DNA of 64,000 bases, from NCBI RefSeq assembly GCF_008386235.1, contig NZ_CP040671.1:2358001-2422000 (forward strand). The letters are read 5' to 3'. The translations under genes were made by a program, and so were the position numbers. Shown here piece by piece: positions 957 through 18,414 of this stretch. The stretch's first letter is position 1, and every line of letters begins with the position of its first letter. Source of the DNA: Thermosynechococcus sp. CL-1. GTDB taxonomy: Bacteria > Cyanobacteriota > Cyanobacteriia > Thermosynechococcales > Thermosynechococcaceae. A model generated the notes under the pieces. That model saw nothing but the letters and a program-made list of their open reading frames with translations. It was not told the DNA's origin and did not search any database.

Positions 957-3842
957 ATGAGCATTGGTAAAGTTCGCATTTATGACCTATCAAAAGAACT
1001 CAACCTAGATAATCGAGATTTATTGGCGATCTGTGAACAGTTGGGAATTGCCTATAAAAGTCACAGCAGCACAATTTCCGATGCCGATGCCGATCGCATT
1101 CGCGAAGCTGCCAAAACCTATCAACCCCATAGTGCCTCTCCCCGTAAAGTTTCAAAAACACCTCCTCCTGTGAAGAAAGCCGCAGCCCCTCCAAAAACGC
1201 AGCAAATTGTTGCTGTCCACACTCAACCCCGCTCTGAGACACCAGAAGCGCCCAAGCCTCAATTACAACAACCTCCCGCTCGTCCCCAAGCACCGCAGCC
1301 CCCTGCGCGACCCACACCCCCTGCGCCGGTTGCCACCAAGCCAGTGGAACCTGTGGCGCCCAAACCCCCTACACCTCCCGCAAAACCCGAACCGACACCA
1401 CCGCGTCCAGCGCCTACTTTAGTCCCCCCGCCCGCCCGCCCCACCAAGAAAGCGGAAAAAGTCGCTGCGGCTCCCCCGCCCCGCAAAGAGCTAAAGGAAC
1501 CCCCCAAAAAAGAAAAGGTGGCGATCGCTCCTGCGAAACCCAGCAGTCAAGATCGCATTGAAATTGTCCAGCGGGCAGTTCCCCCGGCACCCGTCAAGCC
1601 CCCGGAAATGGCGCCCAAGCCAGCTTTACCAGAGCTACAACCGCCACCCAAACCCGTTGCGCCAGTCCTGCGGGCACCAAATCCACCCAAGCCCGTCACC
1701 GAAACCGTTGAGGTACTCGATGACAAGTCCGTTAGCAAAGTCATCAAAGACCGCCACCGTCACAAAGACTTTGATGATGAGGAGAACAAACGGAAATCCT
1801 CCCGCGTCGTCAAGTTGCGTGAAGAAGTCATCGACGAAGAGGAAGAACTAGAACTCACCAGCCGTTTGGTCGGGGTACACCAAGTAACCGTTGATGTCAG
1901 CCAATCGCTGCAACGGCCACCCAAGCCCAAGGCGCCTCGTCCTGCCCGCCCCGTTACACCAGCGGCGAAAACCGAAAAAAGCAGCGAGAAAAAACAACCC
2001 CGGCATCGCGATCGCCGTCACGAAGAGCCAGCCGAAGCACCACCGCCCGATCACATTACGATTGAAGGCCCGATGTCAGTGCAGGAGTTGGCCAGTTTAG
2101 TGCGTCGCCCCGAAGCGGAAATCATTAAAATTCTCTTCTTTAAGGGAATTGCCGCCACCATCAACCAAACCCTTGAGGTGGAAACAATTGAACTCGTGGC
2201 CAAGGAATTGGGGATTACGGTGGAAACGGCACAGCAGAAAGCCGAGGCCACAAAAGTCACCGAAATGCTGGAGTCGAGCGACCTCGATCACCTGCAACGG
2301 CGTCCACCCGTAGTCACGATTATGGGTCACGTGGATCATGGCAAAACCAGCCTTCTCGATGCCATTCGCAATGCCAAAGTGGCCCAAGGGGAAGCAGGCG
2401 GCATCACCCAACACATTGGCGCCTACCACGTGGATGTCGAACACAACGGCGAAAAACATCAGGTCGTCTTTCTCGATACCCCCGGTCACGAAGCCTTTAC
2501 CGCCATGCGGGCACGGGGGGCACGGGTCACCGATATTGCTGTTCTCGTGGTTGCTGCCGATGATGGGGTGCAACCTCAAACCATTGAAGCCATTAGCCAC
2601 GCCAAAGCAGCTAAAGTGCCGATCATTGTCGCCATTAACAAAATTGACAAAGAGTCTGCCCAACCGGAGCGGGTCAAGCAGGAACTCACCGAATACGGCT
2701 TGGTGCCCGAAGAGTGGGGGGGCGACACGATTATGGTTCCCGTCAGTGCCCTGCAACAGCAAAATCTCGATACGCTCCTAGAAATGATCCTGCTGGTGGC
2801 TGAGGTGGAGGATCTCTACGCCAATCCCGATCGCCCTGCCAAAGGCACCGTCATTGAAGCCCACTTGGATCGGGCACGGGGACCTGTGGCCACATTGCTG
2901 GTACAAAACGGTACTCTGCGGGTCGGCGATATTCTGGTGGCAGGTGCCTGTTTTGGTCGGGTTCGCGCCATGATTGACGATCGCGGGCAGCGTGTCGAGG
3001 CAGCAACCCCCTCCTTTGCTGTCGAAGTCTTGGGTCTGGCGGATGTCCCTGCTGCCGGGGATGAATTTGAAGTCCTCAGCGATGAAAAAGCCGCCCGTGC
3101 CCTTGCGCAGGAGCGAGCCGCCGCTCAACGCCAATCCCGCCTTGCCCAAGCCGCAGCCGCCCGGCGGGTCTCCCTTACCTCGTTGTCCAGTCAAGCCCGC
3201 GAAGGGGAACTCAAGGAACTCAATCTCATTCTCAAAGCCGACGTTCAAGGTTCCGTCGAGGCGATTTTGGCGGCCCTCAACCAACTGCCCCAAGATCAAG
3301 TACAGTTGCGAGTCTTGTTGGCTGCCCCCGGCGAAATTACTGAAACCGATGTTGACCTTGCCGCCGCCAGTAGTGCCGTCATCATTGGCTTTAATACGAC
3401 CCTTGCCTCAGGGGCACGCCAAGCGGCTGAGCAGCACAATGTTGATGTCCGCGAATACAACATCATCTATAAGCTCCTCGATGATATTCAAGGGGCAATG
3501 GAGGGGATGCTGGAACCCGAACTGGTCGAGGAAGAACTGGGTCAAGCCGAAGTGCGAGCTATCTTCCCCCTCAGCAAAGGAGCTGTGGCCGGTTGTTATG
3601 TCCTCAATGGCAAGCTCGTGCGCAACTGCAAAGTACGGGTGCTGCGCCAGCAAAGCGTCATTCACACAGGCATCTTGAGTTCGCTAAAACGCATGAAGGA
3701 CGATGTCCGCGAAGTTGCGGCGGGCTACGAATGTGGTGTGCGCTTGGATGATTTTCAACAATGGCAGGAAGGAGATATTATTTACGCCTTCCAAACAGTA
3801 ACAAAACGTCGTAGTCTTGGCAGCGGTAGCGATAGAAACTAA
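957..3842 (+). CDS. infB: Translation initiation factor IF-2
   Basis: IF-2 is the GTPase that places initiator fMet-tRNA on the 30S subunit and promotes 50S joining. The 961-residue product has an N-terminal IF2_N module ([19 protein letters not shown]), a long Pro/Ala/Lys-rich linker to about residue 300, a second IF2_N module near residue 371 ([12 protein letters not shown]), then the G domain with GHVDHGKT (about 456), DTPGHE (about 507) and NKID (about 561), followed by the beta-barrel and C-terminal domains. The frame stays open up to a TTG at 891, but the ATG at 957 starts the conserved [11 protein letters not shown] and is preferred. The length is typical of cyanobacterial IF-2, which carries a long linker. 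Confidence 0.97.
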
Positions 3843-3853
3843 ACTGAGTCAAA

Positions 3854-3888
3854 GTTGATCAATTGATAACTCTAAATTCAAGATCAAC
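3854..3888. repeat. Inverted repeat between infB and the binding-protein gene
   Basis: GTTGATC (3854-3860) and GATCAAC (3882-3888) are perfect arms separated by 21 nt. They lie between the infB stop and the next ATG. There is no T run after it, so it is a poor intrinsic terminator; it could be an operator or chance. Confidence 0.3.
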
Positions 3889-3907
3889 CTGATGTGAGGA
3901 GAGCGCT

Positions 3908-4825
3908 ATGGGACTGCACCGTCGTACGTTTTTGCGCCGTGTGGCACAGGGGATGGGGGCAATCGCGATCGCCACAGGGAGTAAAACCCTACTCACGGCC
4001 TGTGCCGGCAATGTCGATTCGACCTCTGGAACGTCAACTACGGGCACTGTCTCCAGCAAAGGTCTCCTCAATCCCGGTACATTGGCTTGGGGGGCTGAGG
4101 CGATTAGTGGTGCTCCCTACGTTTTTTACGACCCAGTTGATCCCGGTAAGTTGATTGGCTTTGAGGTGGAAATTGCCGACGCAATCGCCCAACTAATGGG
4201 GGTCAATGCCGTATTCGTTGCCACTGCCTACGATCAACTGTCCGCTGCCCTTGCCGCCAATCGCTTTGACATGATTCTTAACGGTTGGGAGATCACCACC
4301 GATCGCGATCGCACCCAACTCTTTTCCCAGCCCTACTATCGCTATGGCCAACAGATCGTTGTCCGAGCCAATGACCCCCGTTTTGAGCAATACACTGCCA
4401 CGAGTGAAGTCACACTGGCCAATCTGGCTGGCATGACTGTCGGCACTGGCATTGGCTACAAAGCCCAAGAAATTCTTGAAAGGGACAAAAACATTAAAAC
4501 CCGTGCCTACGATGGCAACCTGCCCTTTGATGATCTCGCCCAAGGGCGGATTGATGCCGTGATGCTAGACTATCCGATTGTTGCCTACTATGTTCTTGGC
4601 GCCGGTCCGGGGGGCACAGTGAACAATAGCCTGCGTCCAATTGGTGTCCCGATCTTTTTGAATAACTATGTGATTGCCTTTAATAAGAACAACCCCAAAG
4701 GAGAAACCCTCAAAACAGAAGTTGATCAAGCCATCGACATCCTCAAGAAGGACGGCACATTACGCCGCATCTACGAAAAATGGAAAATGTGGAATGATCA
4801 ACAGACCCAAATTGGGATTGTGTGA
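3908..4825 (+). CDS. Amino-acid ABC transporter substrate-binding lipoprotein (SBP family 3)
   Basis: The 305-residue protein begins with a Tat-type signal (RRTFLRR at residues 5-11), a hydrophobic stretch and the lipobox LTAC with Cys32, so it should be exported folded and lipid-anchored. The mature part has the family 3 solute-binding fold: GFEVEIADAIAQLMG, the AALAANRFDMILNGWEIT ligand loop, VGTGIGYKAQEIL and a C-terminal KDGTLRRIYEKW. Such proteins deliver polar amino acids to a HisM/GlnP permease. No permease or ATPase is adjacent; a HisM-type permease gene lies at 53209-53877, but a functional link is only a guess. A hairpin starts at the base after the stop codon. Confidence 0.88.
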   Translation: MGLHRRTFLRRVAQGMGAIAIATGSKTLLTACAGNVDSTSGTSTTGTVSSKGLLNPGTLAWGAEAISGAPYVFYDPVDPGKLIGFEVEIADAIAQLMGVNAVFVATAYDQLSAALAANRFDMILNGWEITTDRDRTQLFSQPYYRYGQQIVVRANDPRFEQYTATSEVTLANLAGMTVGTGIGYKAQEILERDKNIKTRAYDGNLPFDDLAQGRIDAVMLDYPIVAYYVLGAGPGGTVNNSLRPIGVPIFLNNYVIAFNKNNPKGETLKTEVDQAIDILKKDGTLRRIYEKWKMWNDQQTQIGIV

Positions 4826-4905
4826 CATCCTCCCGACGCTGACCCTACGGTTCTCAACCTCACTTCTCGCTTGTGGGGCAAGGGATGACTAAAATCGTGA
4901 GGATG
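4826..4905. repeat. Long-loop inverted repeat, possible insertion-sequence end scar
   Basis: The 11-nt arms 4826-4836 (CATCCTCCCGA) and 4895-4905 (TCGTGAGGATG) pair at 10 of 11 positions. They begin at the first base after the preceding stop codon. The left arm and the following CGCTGACCCTACGG resemble, from memory, the ends of IS200/IS605-type elements in cyanobacteria. No transposase frame is present between or beside the arms. It could also act as a transcript 3'-end structure. Confidence 0.35.
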
Positions 4906-4975
4906 GTATTAGGGAGCAGGGCAAGCAGGTTAATCCAGCGGCTCATACTTGGATCCTACTCCCTTGTATCCAGTA

Positions 4976-5338
4976 TTAACCCAATTGATTGAGGGGAGGC
5001 TGGCCACGCATTTGCCGTAAGGCATTTAGACACAGGGGACAATCACAGCCAAATAGCGCGATCGCGGTATTACTTTCTTCCTCAGTAAACTCTAGTACAG
5101 GAGGGGGCAGCGAACCATTATCACGACTGGCTTGCAGTTTTGTTTCCTGAGCGCCTAGGCGAGTACAGACCAGTTGAAACTTCTGGTGGGGATTAGTGAC
5201 ACACTCACTGCTTTCTGGAGGTGGCACGGGAATGGGGGTACTGAGTTGGGCATGGGCAGGTGCAATCAATGCGACCAAGCTCAGGACGGATCCCAAAAAG
5301 GTAGGGCTGACTAAAAGAGCGAGACGCAAAGCTGACAT
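4976..5338 (-). CDS. Small secreted cysteine-containing protein of unknown function
   Basis: The 120-residue product has a clear Sec signal peptide (RLALLVSPTFLG, hydrophobic to about residue 28, then the APAHA-Q cleavage-like site). The mature part is about 90 residues with a proline-rich start (STPIPVPPPESS) and four cysteines, two of them in CDCPLC near the C-terminus; the other two are in ECVTN and LVCTRLG. The cysteines suggest disulfides or metal binding in the periplasm, but no family was recognised. The start is supported by an AGGA ribosome-binding site in GTGAGGAAACCCT just before the ATG. It is transcribed away from the M16 gene's 3' end in the same orientation, with a 118-nt gap. 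Confidence 0.7.
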   Translation of the reverse strand: MSALRLALLVSPTFLGSVLSLVALIAPAHAQLSTPIPVPPPESSECVTNPHQKFQLVCTRLGAQETKLQASRDNGSLPPPVLEFTEEESNTAIALFGCDCPLCLNALRQMRGQPPLNQLG

Positions 5339-5456
5339 AGGGTTTCCTCACAACTTGTTACTTGATTTTGGAAAAGGTCTGTATCGCTAGTCTAACGATG
5401 ATTGCTTGATTTGGCACAGCCGCGCAATATTCTGAATGCGAAAGCTCATCTTGCTC

Positions 5457-6950
5457 TTAGGATTGAGATTGTCGTTGCTGGCAATTTGTCGTAGGGCAGG
5501 GGATGCGATCGCCCACAATCAGGGTACGCCACTGTTCTGGTTTTAGGCGGGTTTGTGCCACCCGTTGCAGATCTGCTGCCGTTGCGGCTTTAACGGCTCG
5601 CTGATAGCGGAAGATAAAATCCTTGGGCAAATCGTAGTATTCGTAGCGCAGGAGACGATTGAGAATTTGCAGGCGATCGCGAAAATTAAAGACAAAGGAG
5701 TTGAGAATACTGTCTTTGGCGTAGTTCAGTTCTGCGGCACTAACGGGTTCCTGTTGCAGTCGCTGGATTTCCTGCCGTAGGGCGCTGAGAAACTTGGCTG
5801 TGGTTTCTGTTTGCGTTTGGCCAACGCCATAAAACACCCCCGGATAGTCAAATTCGGGACTCCAAGCGGCATAAACACTATAGGCCAAGCCCTGGCGCGA
5901 TCGCACTTCATTGAAAAGACGCCCACCAAAGCCATTGAGAACCCCATTGAGAACATAGAAGTTAAACACGTCCGGATCTTTGAGCGTCCCCCCCAATTGC
6001 CCCGTGTAGATATAGCTTTGGGAGAGATGGGGGCGATTAATCACCACCGTTGTTGGCGACGTATCAACTGTTACCCTAGGTAAGGGGGGCAAAGGAGGTA
6101 AATTCGGTGGATCTTGCCATGAGCCAAAAATTGCTTCAAGGCGATCGCCCATTTGCGAGGCATCAAAGTCGCCCACCAAGCCCAAAATACAGCGGGAGGG
6201 AGCGAGGTACCTGCGGTAAAACTGCTGCACATCCGCCGGTGTGATCTTGGCAAGGGTCTCTAACTCTTGGGTGCGGGCATAGGGACTCTCAGCACCGTAG
6301 ATCAGCTTGTAAAATTCCCGTTCTGCTTGGGCATTGGGTTGATCATCGCGGCGTTGAATGATCCCTTGCCGCCGCCGAATCGCCAGTTCAAATCGCTCTG
6401 GTTCTACTGCTGGCGCTTGGAGCATCTCCGCTAGTTGGCTTAGAACCGCTTCACTGTGTTCCTTGAGGCTGTTGAAATTAATCCGCCCTAAACTTTTGCC
6501 GACACCCGATTCAATGGCTGCTGCTCGATCCTCAAGCCATTGGTCAATTTCAGCGGCACGATGAACTTGGGTGCCACCCGTGCGAATCAGGTCGCCACTG
6601 ACTTCTGCCAAACCCACCTGAGCCGGCGGATCCCAACGACTACCTGCCCGAAAGATTAAGGTGCCTCGCACCAAGGGCCACTCGTGATCCTCTAGGAGAT
6701 AGACCACCATCCCATTGGCCAACTGACGGCGTTCATAGGCCGGCACTTGAATTTCCGGTAAGGGGGGAAATGTCAGCTCAGTGTAGTGCTTGGGGGTCAT
6801 GGCTGCTGCCAAAGGGGGTGGGATCAACCATAGCAGGAGAGCCACTACGAGTCCAAGGCAAAGCGATCGCCCCACTGGACGGCGTCTTTGGAGCCAGACA
6901 GCCATCGAGAGAAAAAGAATAAAAATAATCCGATAGGATGAAGCCAACAT
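5457..6950 (-). CDS. M16 (pitrilysin/processing-peptidase) family protein lacking the zinc motif
   Basis: The 497-residue protein has an N-terminal membrane or signal segment (hydrophobic residues about 30-50) and two M16 domains: the first from YERRQLANGMVVYLLED through IFGSWQ, the second with FGGRLFNEVRSRQGLAYSVY. Active M16 enzymes carry HxxEH in the first domain; here the equivalent helix reads GLAEVSGDLIRTGG, so the zinc ligands are absent. It resembles the non-catalytic partner that pairs with an active M16 subunit in bacteria, but no active partner gene is adjacent. Likely periplasmic or membrane-attached. ATG at 6950; the 316-bp region upstream is shared with the divergent GGDEF gene. 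Confidence 0.85.
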   Translation of the reverse strand: MLASSYRIIFILFLSMAVWLQRRRPVGRSLCLGLVVALLLWLIPPPLAAAMTPKHYTELTFPPLPEIQVPAYERRQLANGMVVYLLEDHEWPLVRGTLIFRAGSRWDPPAQVGLAEVSGDLIRTGGTQVHRAAEIDQWLEDRAAAIESGVGKSLGRINFNSLKEHSEAVLSQLAEMLQAPAVEPERFELAIRRRQGIIQRRDDQPNAQAEREFYKLIYGAESPYARTQELETLAKITPADVQQFYRRYLAPSRCILGLVGDFDASQMGDRLEAIFGSWQDPPNLPPLPPLPRVTVDTSPTTVVINRPHLSQSYIYTGQLGGTLKDPDVFNFYVLNGVLNGFGGRLFNEVRSRQGLAYSVYAAWSPEFDYPGVFYGVGQTQTETTAKFLSALRQEIQRLQQEPVSAAELNYAKDSILNSFVFNFRDRLQILNRLLRYEYYDLPKDFIFRYQRAVKAATAADLQRVAQTRLKPEQWRTLIVGDRIPCPTTNCQQRQSQS

Positions 6951-14493: not shown

Positions 14494-15584
14494 GGAGGGG
14501 CGAGGACAATCGCGGCATTTTGCCCCCCAAAGCCGTAACTACAGCAGAGAATGTGCTCTAGAGGGGCAGAACGCGTCTGTTGGACAATGTCCAAGTCAAA
14601 GTCGGGAGTCTCACAGCCAACACAGGGAGGAATCTGCTGCTCCCGTAAGGATAAGCAAGAGAGGGCGATCGCGATCGCGCCAGCAGCACCTAGGGTATGC
14701 CCAAGGGCCCCTTTGTGACTGGTGACCGCAACCCCTTGACCAAAAAGGGTTTGCATCCAAGTGGCTTCGGCGGCATCGTTACGCTGTGTGCCCGTACCGT
14801 GACTATGGATACAGTCGATCTGTGGCGGTGTTAGCCCCGCCTGAGCCAAGGCCTTTTGAATGGCTAGGAGAGCACCGGTTTGGTGGACACTGGGGGCAGC
14901 CATATGCTCGGCATCAGCACTGAGACCCACTCCAGCAATTCGGGCATAGGGGTCAATGCCTCGCGATCGCGCCCGTGCCTCAGATTCTAGGACGACAATA
15001 GCACCGCCGGCCGCTAAGCCAAATCCCTGCCGCTGGCGATCGAAGGGGGCCGCACGCTCCTGAGCCAATACCCCCAACTGCCGAAATCCCGCCAAGGTCA
15101 AGGGGGAGACGGCGGACTCGACCCCTCCCGCCAACACCAGATCACACTGGTTCTGCTCAATGAGTAATGCCCCTTGGGCGATCGCCCACATTCCCGTGGC
15201 ACAGGCGGCTGTGGGGTTGAGCACTATCCCCTGAATGCCTGCAATTTGTGCTACCTGCTGCGAGACAGTTGCTGGCAAGGTTTGTAACCATGTTTCTCGC
15301 GATAGAGAAGGCTGCCGTAACCACGTTTCCCACTGTGCTTGAAAGCCCCGACTGGAGCCAACCACCACTCCAGCATCGCCTAGGGGAACCGTTAATTTTG
15401 CGTCGTTGAGCGCTTGAGTTGTCGTCGCAGCAATAATTTTCTCAATCGGTAAGGTCGTTGCACCCACCAGTCCTTTAGGCGTGGCGATGAGTGCCGTTTT
15501 TCCTTGACAGTAGCGCCGCCATGTGGCGATCGCGCTCTCCCCCAGAGCTGTCCACAGACCAATACCGGTAATAACAACATTCAC
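14490..15584 (-). CDS. Beta-ketoacyl-ACP synthase-like protein (KAS II type, short)
   Basis: The 364-residue thiolase-fold protein carries the KAS Cys-His-His set: NPTAACATG with Cys128, SHGTGT with His262, and [14 protein letters not shown] with Lys291 and His296. KAS II enzymes extend acyl-ACP by two carbons using malonyl-ACP. FabF proteins are usually about 410 residues, so this one is some 45 residues shorter, with a reduced first half, and is more likely a secondary synthase than the main FabF. The genes beside it (dxs, cutA) are not fatty-acid genes. Active-site residues are complete, so activity is expected but the substrate is open. Confidence 0.88.
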
Positions 15585-15666
15585 TGCACGATTTTATTCA
15601 AGATTTGTTCAGGATATGATCGACATCATCAAGCGTGACGTGAGGACAGCAGGCTTGGAAGCGGCA

Positions 15667-15993
15667 ATGGAGTATTGTGTGGTGATGGTTACCACGGCCA
15701 CAGAAGCTGAGGCACTCTCCTTGGCCGATCAACTCGTGGCTGAGCACCTCGCTGCCTGTGTGCAAATTCTGCCTATTCAATCAATATACCGCTGGCAAGG
15801 AACCGTACATCGCGATCCAGAATGGCAATTGCTCATTAAAACTCGCATCACTTTATTTGAGCAGGTGCGCGATCGCCTGCTGGCATTACACAGTTATGAA
15901 GTTCCAGAAATCATTGCCCTGCCAATTATTGCCGGTTCTCCTGCTTACTTGAGTTGGGTCAAAGAACAAACTCAAAAAATCTCTAGAGGTTAA
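15667..15993 (+). CDS. cutA: Divalent-cation tolerance protein CutA
   Basis: The 108-residue protein from the ATG at 15667 has the normal CutA length and signature: YCVVMVTTATEAEALSLADQL, LAACVQILPIQSIYRWQG, EWQLLIKTR and EVPEIIALPI. CutA forms very stable trimers; a role in copper tolerance was proposed in E. coli but its true function is unsettled. The frame is open upstream to 15523, inside the divergent ketoacyl synthase gene, but those extra residues are unlike CutA. The next gene begins 2 nt after the stop, so cutA and the darTG fusion are probably cotranscribed. Confidence 0.93.
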   Translation: MEYCVVMVTTATEAEALSLADQLVAEHLAACVQILPIQSIYRWQGTVHRDPEWQLLIKTRITLFEQVRDRLLALHSYEVPEIIALPIIAGSPAYLSWVKEQTQKISRG

Positions 15994-15995
15994 GA

Positions 15996-17162
15996 ATGCC
16001 TGAACCCAAAATCAAAAGCTTATATTACATTACCCATGTGAACAACCTCTCCTCTATATTCCAACACGGAATTCTTGCACATGAGCAAGTCGTAGAACGC
16101 GGTCTTTCCCCGACACCTATCTATAACGCAGACATCGTTGCGCATCGGCAACACCGCCTCGCACCAAATGGTCAGAGTCTATGGCAATATGCCAACCTCT
16201 ATTTTCAACCCCGAAATCCCATGCTTTATAAAGTATTAAGTGAAATCAATAAAAACAATGTTGTCATTTTAGGAATTAAACCCCGTATCCTAGATATCAA
16301 AGGAACCTTCATTGCTTTAGGGAATGCAGCCCACTTCGTTACTGAAATCCGCGATGCTAAAACTGGACTACAAATCATCCATCGCGATTATTGGAGCATT
16401 CTCAATAATGACTGGTGGAAAACTGAAGATGGTACAAAGCGAAAAATTATGGCGGAATGCTTGGTTCCAAAAGTGGTTCCCCCCACTGAGATTCATTCTG
16501 TTTATGTTGCAAGTCAGGAGATGGCAGAGCGCCTTCGACAACAGTTCAGTTCTGTTGAAGTCGTAGTTGAACCCCACATGTTTTTCCAACCCCGACGACG
16601 TGCTGCAATTACGACTCATCTATCTTGGGTGGATGGAGATATGTTCTTCTCCCAAATGCAAACCCTAACAATCAGTGTCAATACCGTCGGTGTAATGGGT
16701 AAGGGATTAGCCTCACGGGCAAAATATCAATTTCCGGATATGTACGTCGTCTATCAAGATGTCTGCAAGAAAAAGCAACTTACAATGGGGAAACCATATT
16801 TGTATAAACGTGAAGCTTCTCTAGACAGCGATCTAGCGGATGAACCTTTGAGCTTACCCAACTTGAATGCCAATAAATGGTTTTTACTCTTTCCGACTAA
16901 AACTCACTGGAAACGATCGTCTGACATTACAGGAATTGAGCGAGGTTTGCAATGGTTAGTGGATAGCTATCAAGCAGAAGGCATTCAATCTCTTGCTGTT
17001 CCCGCCCTTGGCTGTGGCTTGGGGGGTCTAGACTGGAGGGAAATAGGACCACTGATGTGTCGTTATCTTTCACAAATGCAGATTCAAGTGGCTATTTACT
17101 TGCCCCAGGAACAAGAGGTACCAGCAGAGTTTTTAACTAGGGATTTTTTACTAGCCGCCTAA
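15996..17162 (+). CDS. darTG: Fused DarT DNA ADP-ribosyltransferase and DarG-type macrodomain
   Basis: A single 388-residue frame joins two proteins usually encoded as a toxin-antitoxin pair. Residues 1-200 match DarT (DUF4433): YYITHVNNL with His14, a VAHRQHR segment, NPMLY at 74-78, and AECLVPKVVP with Glu154 at the position of the catalytic Glu of T. aquaticus DarT. DarT ADP-ribosylates thymidine in single-stranded DNA. Residues 208-378 match the DarG macrodomain that removes the mark: VNTVGVMGKGLA (228-239), FPTKTHW with Lys302, and PALGCGLGGLDW (336-347). The C-terminal extension of DarG seen in other systems is missing. No stop or frameshift interrupts the frame. The gene is AT-rich (17 of 60 G+C at 16201-16260) and contains no GCGATCGC, unlike its neighbours, suggesting transfer. 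It starts 2 nt after cutA. Confidence 0.9.
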   Translation: MPEPKIKSLYYITHVNNLSSIFQHGILAHEQVVERGLSPTPIYNADIVAHRQHRLAPNGQSLWQYANLYFQPRNPMLYKVLSEINKNNVVILGIKPRILDIKGTFIALGNAAHFVTEIRDAKTGLQIIHRDYWSILNNDWWKTEDGTKRKIMAECLVPKVVPPTEIHSVYVASQEMAERLRQQFSSVEVVVEPHMFFQPRRRAAITTHLSWVDGDMFFSQMQTLTISVNTVGVMGKGLASRAKYQFPDMYVVYQDVCKKKQLTMGKPYLYKREASLDSDLADEPLSLPNLNANKWFLLFPTKTHWKRSSDITGIERGLQWLVDSYQAEGIQSLAVPALGCGLGGLDWREIGPLMCRYLSQMQIQVAIYLPQEQEVPAEFLTRDFLLAA

Positions 17163-17232: not shown

Positions 17233-18414
17233 ATGGTTTCCCTTGCCCGCAAAAATCTCTTAGAAGACTTTAGTCGCTTTCTCGTGGCTCAACTAGGCAT
17301 CACGTTTGCCGTCAGTCTCGTCACCATTCAAACGGGACTCCTTGAGGGATTTGGGCGATCGGCCACTCTCTTGGTGAACAAAAGCCAAGCGGATTTCTGG
17401 ATTGCCTCCAGTGAGTTGCGCTATTTTGGCTTAACGTTGCCTATTGAGTATCAAGTTGTCCTCGATGCCCAGGCAGTTGCAGGGGTTGTAGCCGCAGAAC
17501 CTCTGTTGATCCAGTCAGCGATGTGGCGCCGTTCAGAGACAGAGGCGATCGATCCAGTGCAGGTGGTGGGTATTGAACCAACAGGCACCTTGCTGCCCTT
17601 GACGACAGTTGCTGGTGCAACCCTGACGGAGCTAGAGGAACCCTACAGTGTCATCGTGGATCGCATTGACCTCAATGCCCTTTCCCTTACGGCTCTAGGG
17701 GAGCAAGGTCGCGTGAATAACTACCCAGCGACGGTCACTGGCTGGACGCGCGGTGTCAAATCCATTGTCTCTAGCCCCTATGTCTTTACCTCGTTAGAAA
17801 CGGCGAACCTTTACTTGAACTTCCCGCGGTTTGATACCAGTGAGCCGGTTCCCGAATTTCTGCCGTTGGTGTCCCCCAGTACCCGCATCACCTATGTTAT
17901 GGTAAAAGCCAACCCGGCAGAGGATCTAGCAAAAGTGCAGGAGCGCTTGCGGGCAGCCTTTCCCAACTATCAAGTGCTCAGTCGTGCCGCCCTGAGTGAA
18001 ATGACGCGGCGCTATTGGTTGGCCAGTACCAGTGTGGGGTTCATTTTGGGGCTAGGAGCAGGGGTGGGCATCGTTGTAGGGATAGTGATTGTCAGTCAGA
18101 TTCTCTATTCCTCGGTGAGCGATCGCCTACAGGAGTATGGCACCCTCAAAGCAATGGGGGCTTCTGACGGGTACTTGTATCGCATTATTATTGAGCAAGC
18201 CCTGTGGATGGCCGTACTGGGTTATCTGCCCGGTTTAGGCCTGTGCTGGGGACTGGGGATGTGGACCATGCAAGCCCGTGCCATCCAAATTATCATTACT
18301 CCCCAACTTGCCCTCGCCGTTTTTAGTGCCACCGTAGCCATGTGTGTCAGTGCTTCCCTATTGGCGATTCAAAAAGTGATGCACCTTGATCCCGCCCAAG
18401 TTTTTCGAGCTTGA
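17233..18414 (+). CDS. DevC-like ABC transporter permease (FtsX fold)
   Basis: The 393-residue protein starts with an N-terminal membrane helix (LARKNLLEDFSRFLVAQLG, then FAVSLVTIQTGLL), has a large periplasmic domain (about residues 45-265), and ends with three helices (FILGLGAGVGIVVGIVIVSQILY, a helix near 320-345 and LALAVFSATVAMCVSASLLAI). The QILYSSVSDRLQEYGTLKAMGA segment is the cytoplasmic coupling motif of MacB/DevC permeases. DevBCA exporters move glycolipids or other substrates in cyanobacteria. No DevB adaptor or DevA ATPase is adjacent; the next gene, 3 nt downstream, is a GH57 protein. Confidence 0.85.
   Translation: MVSLARKNLLEDFSRFLVAQLGITFAVSLVTIQTGLLEGFGRSATLLVNKSQADFWIASSELRYFGLTLPIEYQVVLDAQAVAGVVAAEPLLIQSAMWRRSETEAIDPVQVVGIEPTGTLLPLTTVAGATLTELEEPYSVIVDRIDLNALSLTALGEQGRVNNYPATVTGWTRGVKSIVSSPYVFTSLETANLYLNFPRFDTSEPVPEFLPLVSPSTRITYVMVKANPAEDLAKVQERLRAAFPNYQVLSRAALSEMTRRYWLASTSVGFILGLGAGVGIVVGIVIVSQILYSSVSDRLQEYGTLKAMGASDGYLYRIIIEQALWMAVLGYLPGLGLCWGLGMWTMQARAIQIIITPQLALAVFSATVAMCVSASLLAIQKVMHLDPAQVFRA

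Follow-up and report, generated by a model that had tools for sequence, protein, structure and literature searches.

A one-gene fusion of DarT and the DarG macrodomain in Thermosynechococcus sp. CL-1: architecture, distribution and a proposed writer/eraser mechanism

A single gene of Thermosynechococcus sp. CL-1, the fused darTG at positions 15,996 to 17,162, encodes a DarT domain followed by a DarG macrodomain in one polypeptide of 388 aa. Positions are those of the window, i.e., the whole 64,000-nucleotide stretch of DNA that was analysed, and every feature given from it lies on the forward strand. The protein probably acts as a self-contained writer and eraser of thymidine ADP-ribosylation on single-stranded DNA (ssDNA), with its net output set by the balance of the two activities; we put the probability of this reading at about 0.72. 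The first-pass annotation of this DNA had implied that such a fusion was new, which did not hold: one-chain DarTG is an already known and structurally solved kind, and the window protein is not new in kind.

Domain architecture and active sites

The gene reads as one open frame, 388 codons long, that begins with ATG and has no internal stops. Its identification draws on the ORF list, PF14487, NF048014, PADLOC and orthologues in genomes G001 and G007, and in a search of its own genome the only match to it was darTG itself. Toxin and antitoxin thus share one ORF, where type II and type IV toxin-antitoxin systems would have them separately encoded. The first-pass annotation had read the gene as a DarT-DarG macrodomain fusion with the toxin first and the C-terminal domain of DarG missing, and had suggested searches with PF14487 and macrodomain profiles; such searches matched both domains in an uninterrupted frame and confirmed this layout. 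The DarT (DNA thymidine ADP-ribosyltransferase) domain, residues 10–197 (16,023–16,586), covers the entire PF14487 profile (E 1.3e-45; 156 bits vs a Pfam gathering score of 22.5) and resembles Thermus DarT 7omv (VIA Z 22.6). The DarG macrodomain (DNA ADP-ribosyl glycohydrolase), residues 207–372 (16,614–17,111), resembles T. aquaticus DarG 5m3e (VIA Z 23.3). The DarG profile NF048014 aligns to residues 211–377 (E 1.4e-45) at profile positions 3–155 of 338 only; the C-terminal domain of DarG is accordingly absent from the fused protein. PADLOC assigns both DarT (1.8e-38) and DarG to the protein. Both halves fall below the NCBIfam equivalog cut-offs, DarT at 104 bits vs 150 for NF048013 and DarG at 156 bits vs 250 for NF048014, the latter being a cut-off for full-length DarG with its C-terminal domain; these scores count against the writer/eraser reading.

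Three further segments distinguish the fused family. The interdomain junction, residues 198–206 (16,587–16,613), adjoins the invariant F196 and F197, has P199 in 74 of 75 aligned fused relatives, and belongs to a block modelled with pLDDT > 90. Residues 266–295 (16,791–16,880) form a macrodomain insertion, seen as an alignment gap against the DarGs of T. aquaticus and M. tuberculosis, both of which are shorter there; P267, Y270, E273 and W295 within it are conserved among the fused relatives. Where DarG would have its C-terminal domain there is a short conserved tail with the motif LTxxFLL (17,112–17,159), in which L385 is invariant and L380 and L386 are nearly so across the 75 relatives. An internal translation start yielding a free macrodomain was considered and appears unlikely, as the ribosome site for M195 was unconvincing by eye and a start at M216 would truncate the first strand.

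The motif strings NPMLY and GCGLGGLDW reported earlier are present, and the two catalytic residues named with them, Glu154 and Lys302, survived a proper alignment. Across the 75 fused relatives R73, N74, E154, N229, K302, G339, G341 and G343 are invariant, so that the three glycines of the ADP-ribose-binding loop (GCGLGG) never vary. Arg51 (codon 16,146–16,148), the putative NAD-site arginine of DarT by analogy with known DarT structures, is retained in 74 of the 75. Glu154 (16,455–16,457) aligns with E160 of T. aquaticus DarT, the catalytic glutamate whose replacement in E160A gives a dead mutant, and Lys302 (16,899–16,901) with K80 of T. aquaticus DarG in the motif FPTKxHW, loss of which abolishes hydrolase activity (PMC5179494). 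Judged by these residues, nothing points to a dead half in the fused protein.

The closest characterised split system is DarTG2 of T. aquaticus, EPEC and M. tuberculosis, which shares both enzymatic domains and the catalytic residues (Z 22–23 for each half); unlike the fused protein, it comprises two genes, and its DarG has a further, C-terminal domain by which DarT is sequestered (PMC7003065). DarTG1 shares the DarT fold (8baq, Z 18.0) but pairs DarT1 with a NADAR antitoxin, a hydrolase, and targets guanine (PMC11543638), whereas the fused protein has a macrodomain. Human TARG1 has the macrodomain fold and the catalytic lysine (Z 17.9), but is a stand-alone hydrolase without a transferase.

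Structure prediction of both domains gave a confident model that could be compared with a solved homologue. A template-free AlphaFold model built from an alignment was used (pLDDT 91.9, pTM 0.87), and a single-sequence model was discarded (pLDDT 37). PDB entry 7OMU, “Thermosipho africanus DarTG in complex with ADP-ribose” (released 2021-06-23), is a one-chain fusion matched by phmmer over residues 4–386 (E 5.8e-132) and by the model with a Foldseek E of 6.7e-51 and a VIA Z of 48.8 (rmsd 1.5 Å over 373 residues, 52% identity). The orientation of the domains in the model agrees with the crystal across both of them. The two proteins are alike in domain order, length, fold, natural catalytic residues and the missing DarG C-terminal domain; they differ in sequence (at the identity given), in host lineage, and in that the crystallised chain carries a Glu-to-Ala change in its DarT site. 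A natural Thermosipho protein (L083) matches the 7OMU chain over its full length with this change as the single visible difference, and Glu154 of the window protein aligns with that alanine. The fused form was thus crystallised as a toxin-dead mutant, which hints that a macrodomain in cis may leave the toxin half harmful, although the mutation was possibly just routine. The entry belongs to a paper of 2021 in Nature on how DarT works. In the literature searched, which excludes that paper, none was found that discusses the DarTG fusion or the function of the fused form.

Distribution and origin of the fused form

A scan of one genome per species yielded 80 loci, to which loci from a search for relatives and the window's own locus were added. 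One uninterrupted fused ORF of 386–404 aa was found in 76 of these loci, the window's own included, so that the survey suggested earlier places the fused form in many phyla. Its hosts include Chloroflexota (many), Cyanobacteriota, Poribacteria, Planctomycetota, Calditrichota, Bacteroidota, Pseudomonadota, Thermodesulfobacteriota, Thermotogota and the archaeal Nitrososphaerota; many of the genomes are metagenome-assembled, and single placements may reflect binning errors. Among cyanobacteria, 32 of 291 genomes gave matches, of which five are full-length fusions and the others mostly split pairs, single domains and remnants. On one Poribacteria contig (L098), ORFs of the fused family that encode DarT only (3322–3978 and 4056–4400) lie upstream of a full fused gene (4829–6022).

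No fused copy was found in 72,556 plasmids among the matches listed (15 of the 19 with at least 80% coverage), whose annotation assigns the toxin and the macro protein to different genes. Viral contigs yielded none, nor did 50,697 phage records, where the single record with at least 80% query coverage has two separate ORFs. All but one of the phage matches listed cover the macrodomain part only (residues ~213–369, 39–42% identity). They include stand-alone DarG-like macrodomains of jumbo and phiEco32-like phages (e.g., LR881104.1 4293–4706 and EU330206.1 34836–35252), which conceivably serve counter-defence.

In separate trees of the DarT and macrodomain halves, the sampled fused proteins group together. 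With the full set of rows the fused label changes seven times in one half-tree and twice in the other, and the extra changes trace to contig-edge or broken members (L105, L107, L108, L109 and L098) and to the long-branch pair L110. Reduced trees that omit these and the long-branch L155 and L147, built by a quick search without a mixture model, separate fused from split proteins by one change in both (support 100 and 99). Within the sampled set, for which the window protein was the bait for fused members and unrelated fusions elsewhere could be missed, fused DarTG therefore appears to be a single clade in the trees of both domains. The L110 pair itself consists of a split DarT (5001–5591) and a macrodomain-only DarG (5639–6226); its very long branch lies within the fused clade or close to it, and the pair is possibly a secondary fission or a transitional form.

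Both trees nest the window gene with Anaerolineae-type Chloroflexota genes (65–75% identity). Other cyanobacterial fused copies fall apart from it, and one from its own family pairs with a Planctomycetota gene. This placement suggests separate horizontal acquisitions, and the window copy was likely acquired by horizontal transfer. The split DarTs nearest the fused clade include a second lineage of cyanobacterial DarTGs (e.g., L006, L013, L126, L128, L131, L133). The partner DarGs of these nearest DarTs match NF048014 in the macrodomain part only, compared with all 338 profile positions for a canonical plasmid DarG. Unlike the fused form, this lineage has two genes and DarGs with variable C-terminal extensions; no Pfam domain was recognised with confidence after the macrodomain in the split partners. 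The canonical C-terminal domain of DarG may thus have been lost or missing before the fusion arose.

Genomic context and loss within Thermosynechococcus

A cutA-like gene (15,523–15,993; PF03091) ends 2 nt before the start of darTG, in an order common to G001 and G007, and is likely co-transcribed with it. Downstream lies an FtsX/MacB-type permease gene (17,233–18,414; PF02687, PF12704), which flanks the insertion site and is conserved there in every Thermosynechococcus species examined. Among 11 species of the genus, darTG is intact in three (its own included), reduced to a remnant in place in five and absent in three. The two further intact copies are likewise 388-aa fusions, at 95% and 87% identity. 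The remnants (L111, L112, L114, L117, L118) lie between cutA and the permease; four of the five retain both ends around a deleted middle, with at least two deletion patterns, while the fifth (G002) clearly keeps only the gene start. Breakpoints are apparently common to the G004 and G005 remnants, and likewise to those of G006 and G009. In the three empty species, 24–36 nt lie between the matched end of cutA and that of the permease; two of the three are the most diverged at the flanking genes and may never have had darTG. Given these remnants and absences, darTG is dispensable in the genus and lost without visible trouble, which is easy if toxin and antidote leave together.

Further afield, no conserved partner gene was found among 372 neighbours of fused darTG, which show lineage-specific synteny only. 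Screening of 120 neighbour genes with PADLOC and Pfam, without a matched control set, gave few defence matches and mostly housekeeping genes. In four close Anaerolineae-type relatives, an Eco57I-type DNA methylase gene directly follows the fused darTG (L031:6168–7727, L033:6183–7736, L035:2444–3964 and L036:6176–7720). In Nostoc, the end of a protein-kinase gene and the start of the fused darTG overlap (L063:3856–4998 and its orthologues at other Nostoc loci).

Proposed mechanism and rival readings

In the mechanism that we propose, the N-terminal half would use NAD+ to add ADP-ribose onto thymidine of ssDNA, and the C-terminal macrodomain would strip it off again by the mechanism of DarG and TARG1, with Lys302 as the catalytic residue. 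The eraser is covalently tethered, with both halves held in a fixed relative orientation, as suggested by the FF/P junction, the confidence of the model and its agreement with 7OMU. EPEC DarG protects both by macrodomain hydrolysis and by C-terminal sequestering of DarT, either of which suffices alone; as its macrodomain alone neutralises EPEC DarT, the missing C-terminal domain is compatible with protection (PMC7003065), and the fused protein would keep the hydrolysis route only. As parts of one molecule, writer and eraser are made and degraded 1:1, so that decay or differential stability of an antitoxin cannot act as a trigger, and the gene is not a classic addiction module. The in-place decay of darTG in five congeners agrees with a non-addictive module. 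Net modification would instead be set by the balance of rates, the exposed ssDNA and NAD+/ADP-ribose. It would accumulate only where writing exceeds erasing, whether through abundant ssDNA (during phage replication or at stalled forks) or through product inhibition of the macrodomain, and would then stall replication. For this protein we infer the activity, the identity of the substrate, the balance mechanism and any role in defence or growth control. Given the Glu-to-Ala change in the 7OMU construct, fused DarTG with an intact toxin site could be toxic even with a macrodomain in cis, which counts against this mechanism.

What such an enzyme is for can be read in more than one way. Anti-phage abortive infection like that of split DarTG2, with the protein quiet in healthy cells and causing net DNA modification during phage replication, falls a little short of even odds in our estimate; it is a role for the writer/eraser mechanism and not another mechanism. 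Split DarTG1 and DarTG2 both protect against phages (PMC11543638), and the patchy distribution and frequent loss of the fused gene, as well as the methylase gene just downstream in four of the closest relatives, fit a defence gene. The genomic context lends little to this role, since defence-model matches are a small minority of the 120 neighbour genes and the window's immediate neighbours are non-defence genes; the absence of a fused copy from the plasmid matches listed also speaks against it. The same absence, together with that from phage and viral contigs, would suit the alternative raised in the first-pass annotation, a dedicated reversible DNA-marking enzyme that is no toxin and that signals by placing and clearing ADP-ribose at chosen ssDNA sites, tuning replication or transcription. 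The stability of the one-chain form across many phyla, archaea included, at loci with mostly housekeeping neighbours, would suit it too, and a regulatory role has been put forward for M. tuberculosis DarTG (PMC12170906). We nevertheless consider this improbable: a patchy, horizontally moving distribution with repeated loss in one genus is unlike that of a core regulator, and crystallisation required, or at any rate employed, an inactivated toxin site.

That one half is vestigial, e.g., with DarT dead and the protein reduced to a repair hydrolase of ADP-ribosylated DNA, is a reading that selection within the genus bears on. Between the window copy and the intact L002 and L003, dN/dS is 0.15–0.21 for the DarT half and 0.03–0.04 for the macrodomain, about four to eight times higher in DarT, as a decaying half would have it. 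The DarT values are still well below 1, however, and both halves are under purifying selection; with the invariance of R73, N74 and E154 and the near-invariance of R51, this makes a vestigial half highly improbable. A sequencing or assembly error joining two genes, which the first-pass annotation had named as a risk, has nothing in its favour, and its chance is practically nil, as the fused frame recurs in 76 loci, in two congeners and in one crystal structure.

The additions made here to what was known of one-chain DarTG, namely the distribution, origin and loss of fused darTG, are useful but modest. Tentatively, and at rather long odds, fused DarTG could be a distinct, single-origin branch of DNA ADP-ribosylation from a DarTG lineage without the sequestering DarG domain, one that left the addiction mode and became a self-balanced writer/eraser reporting chromosomal ssDNA load. 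Having toxin and antidote in one chain would remove the usual toxin-antitoxin trigger, loss of the antitoxin, and would offer a clean way of asking what turns DNA ADP-ribosylation on; the intact and decayed darTG copies among Thermosynechococcus species provide a natural comparison.
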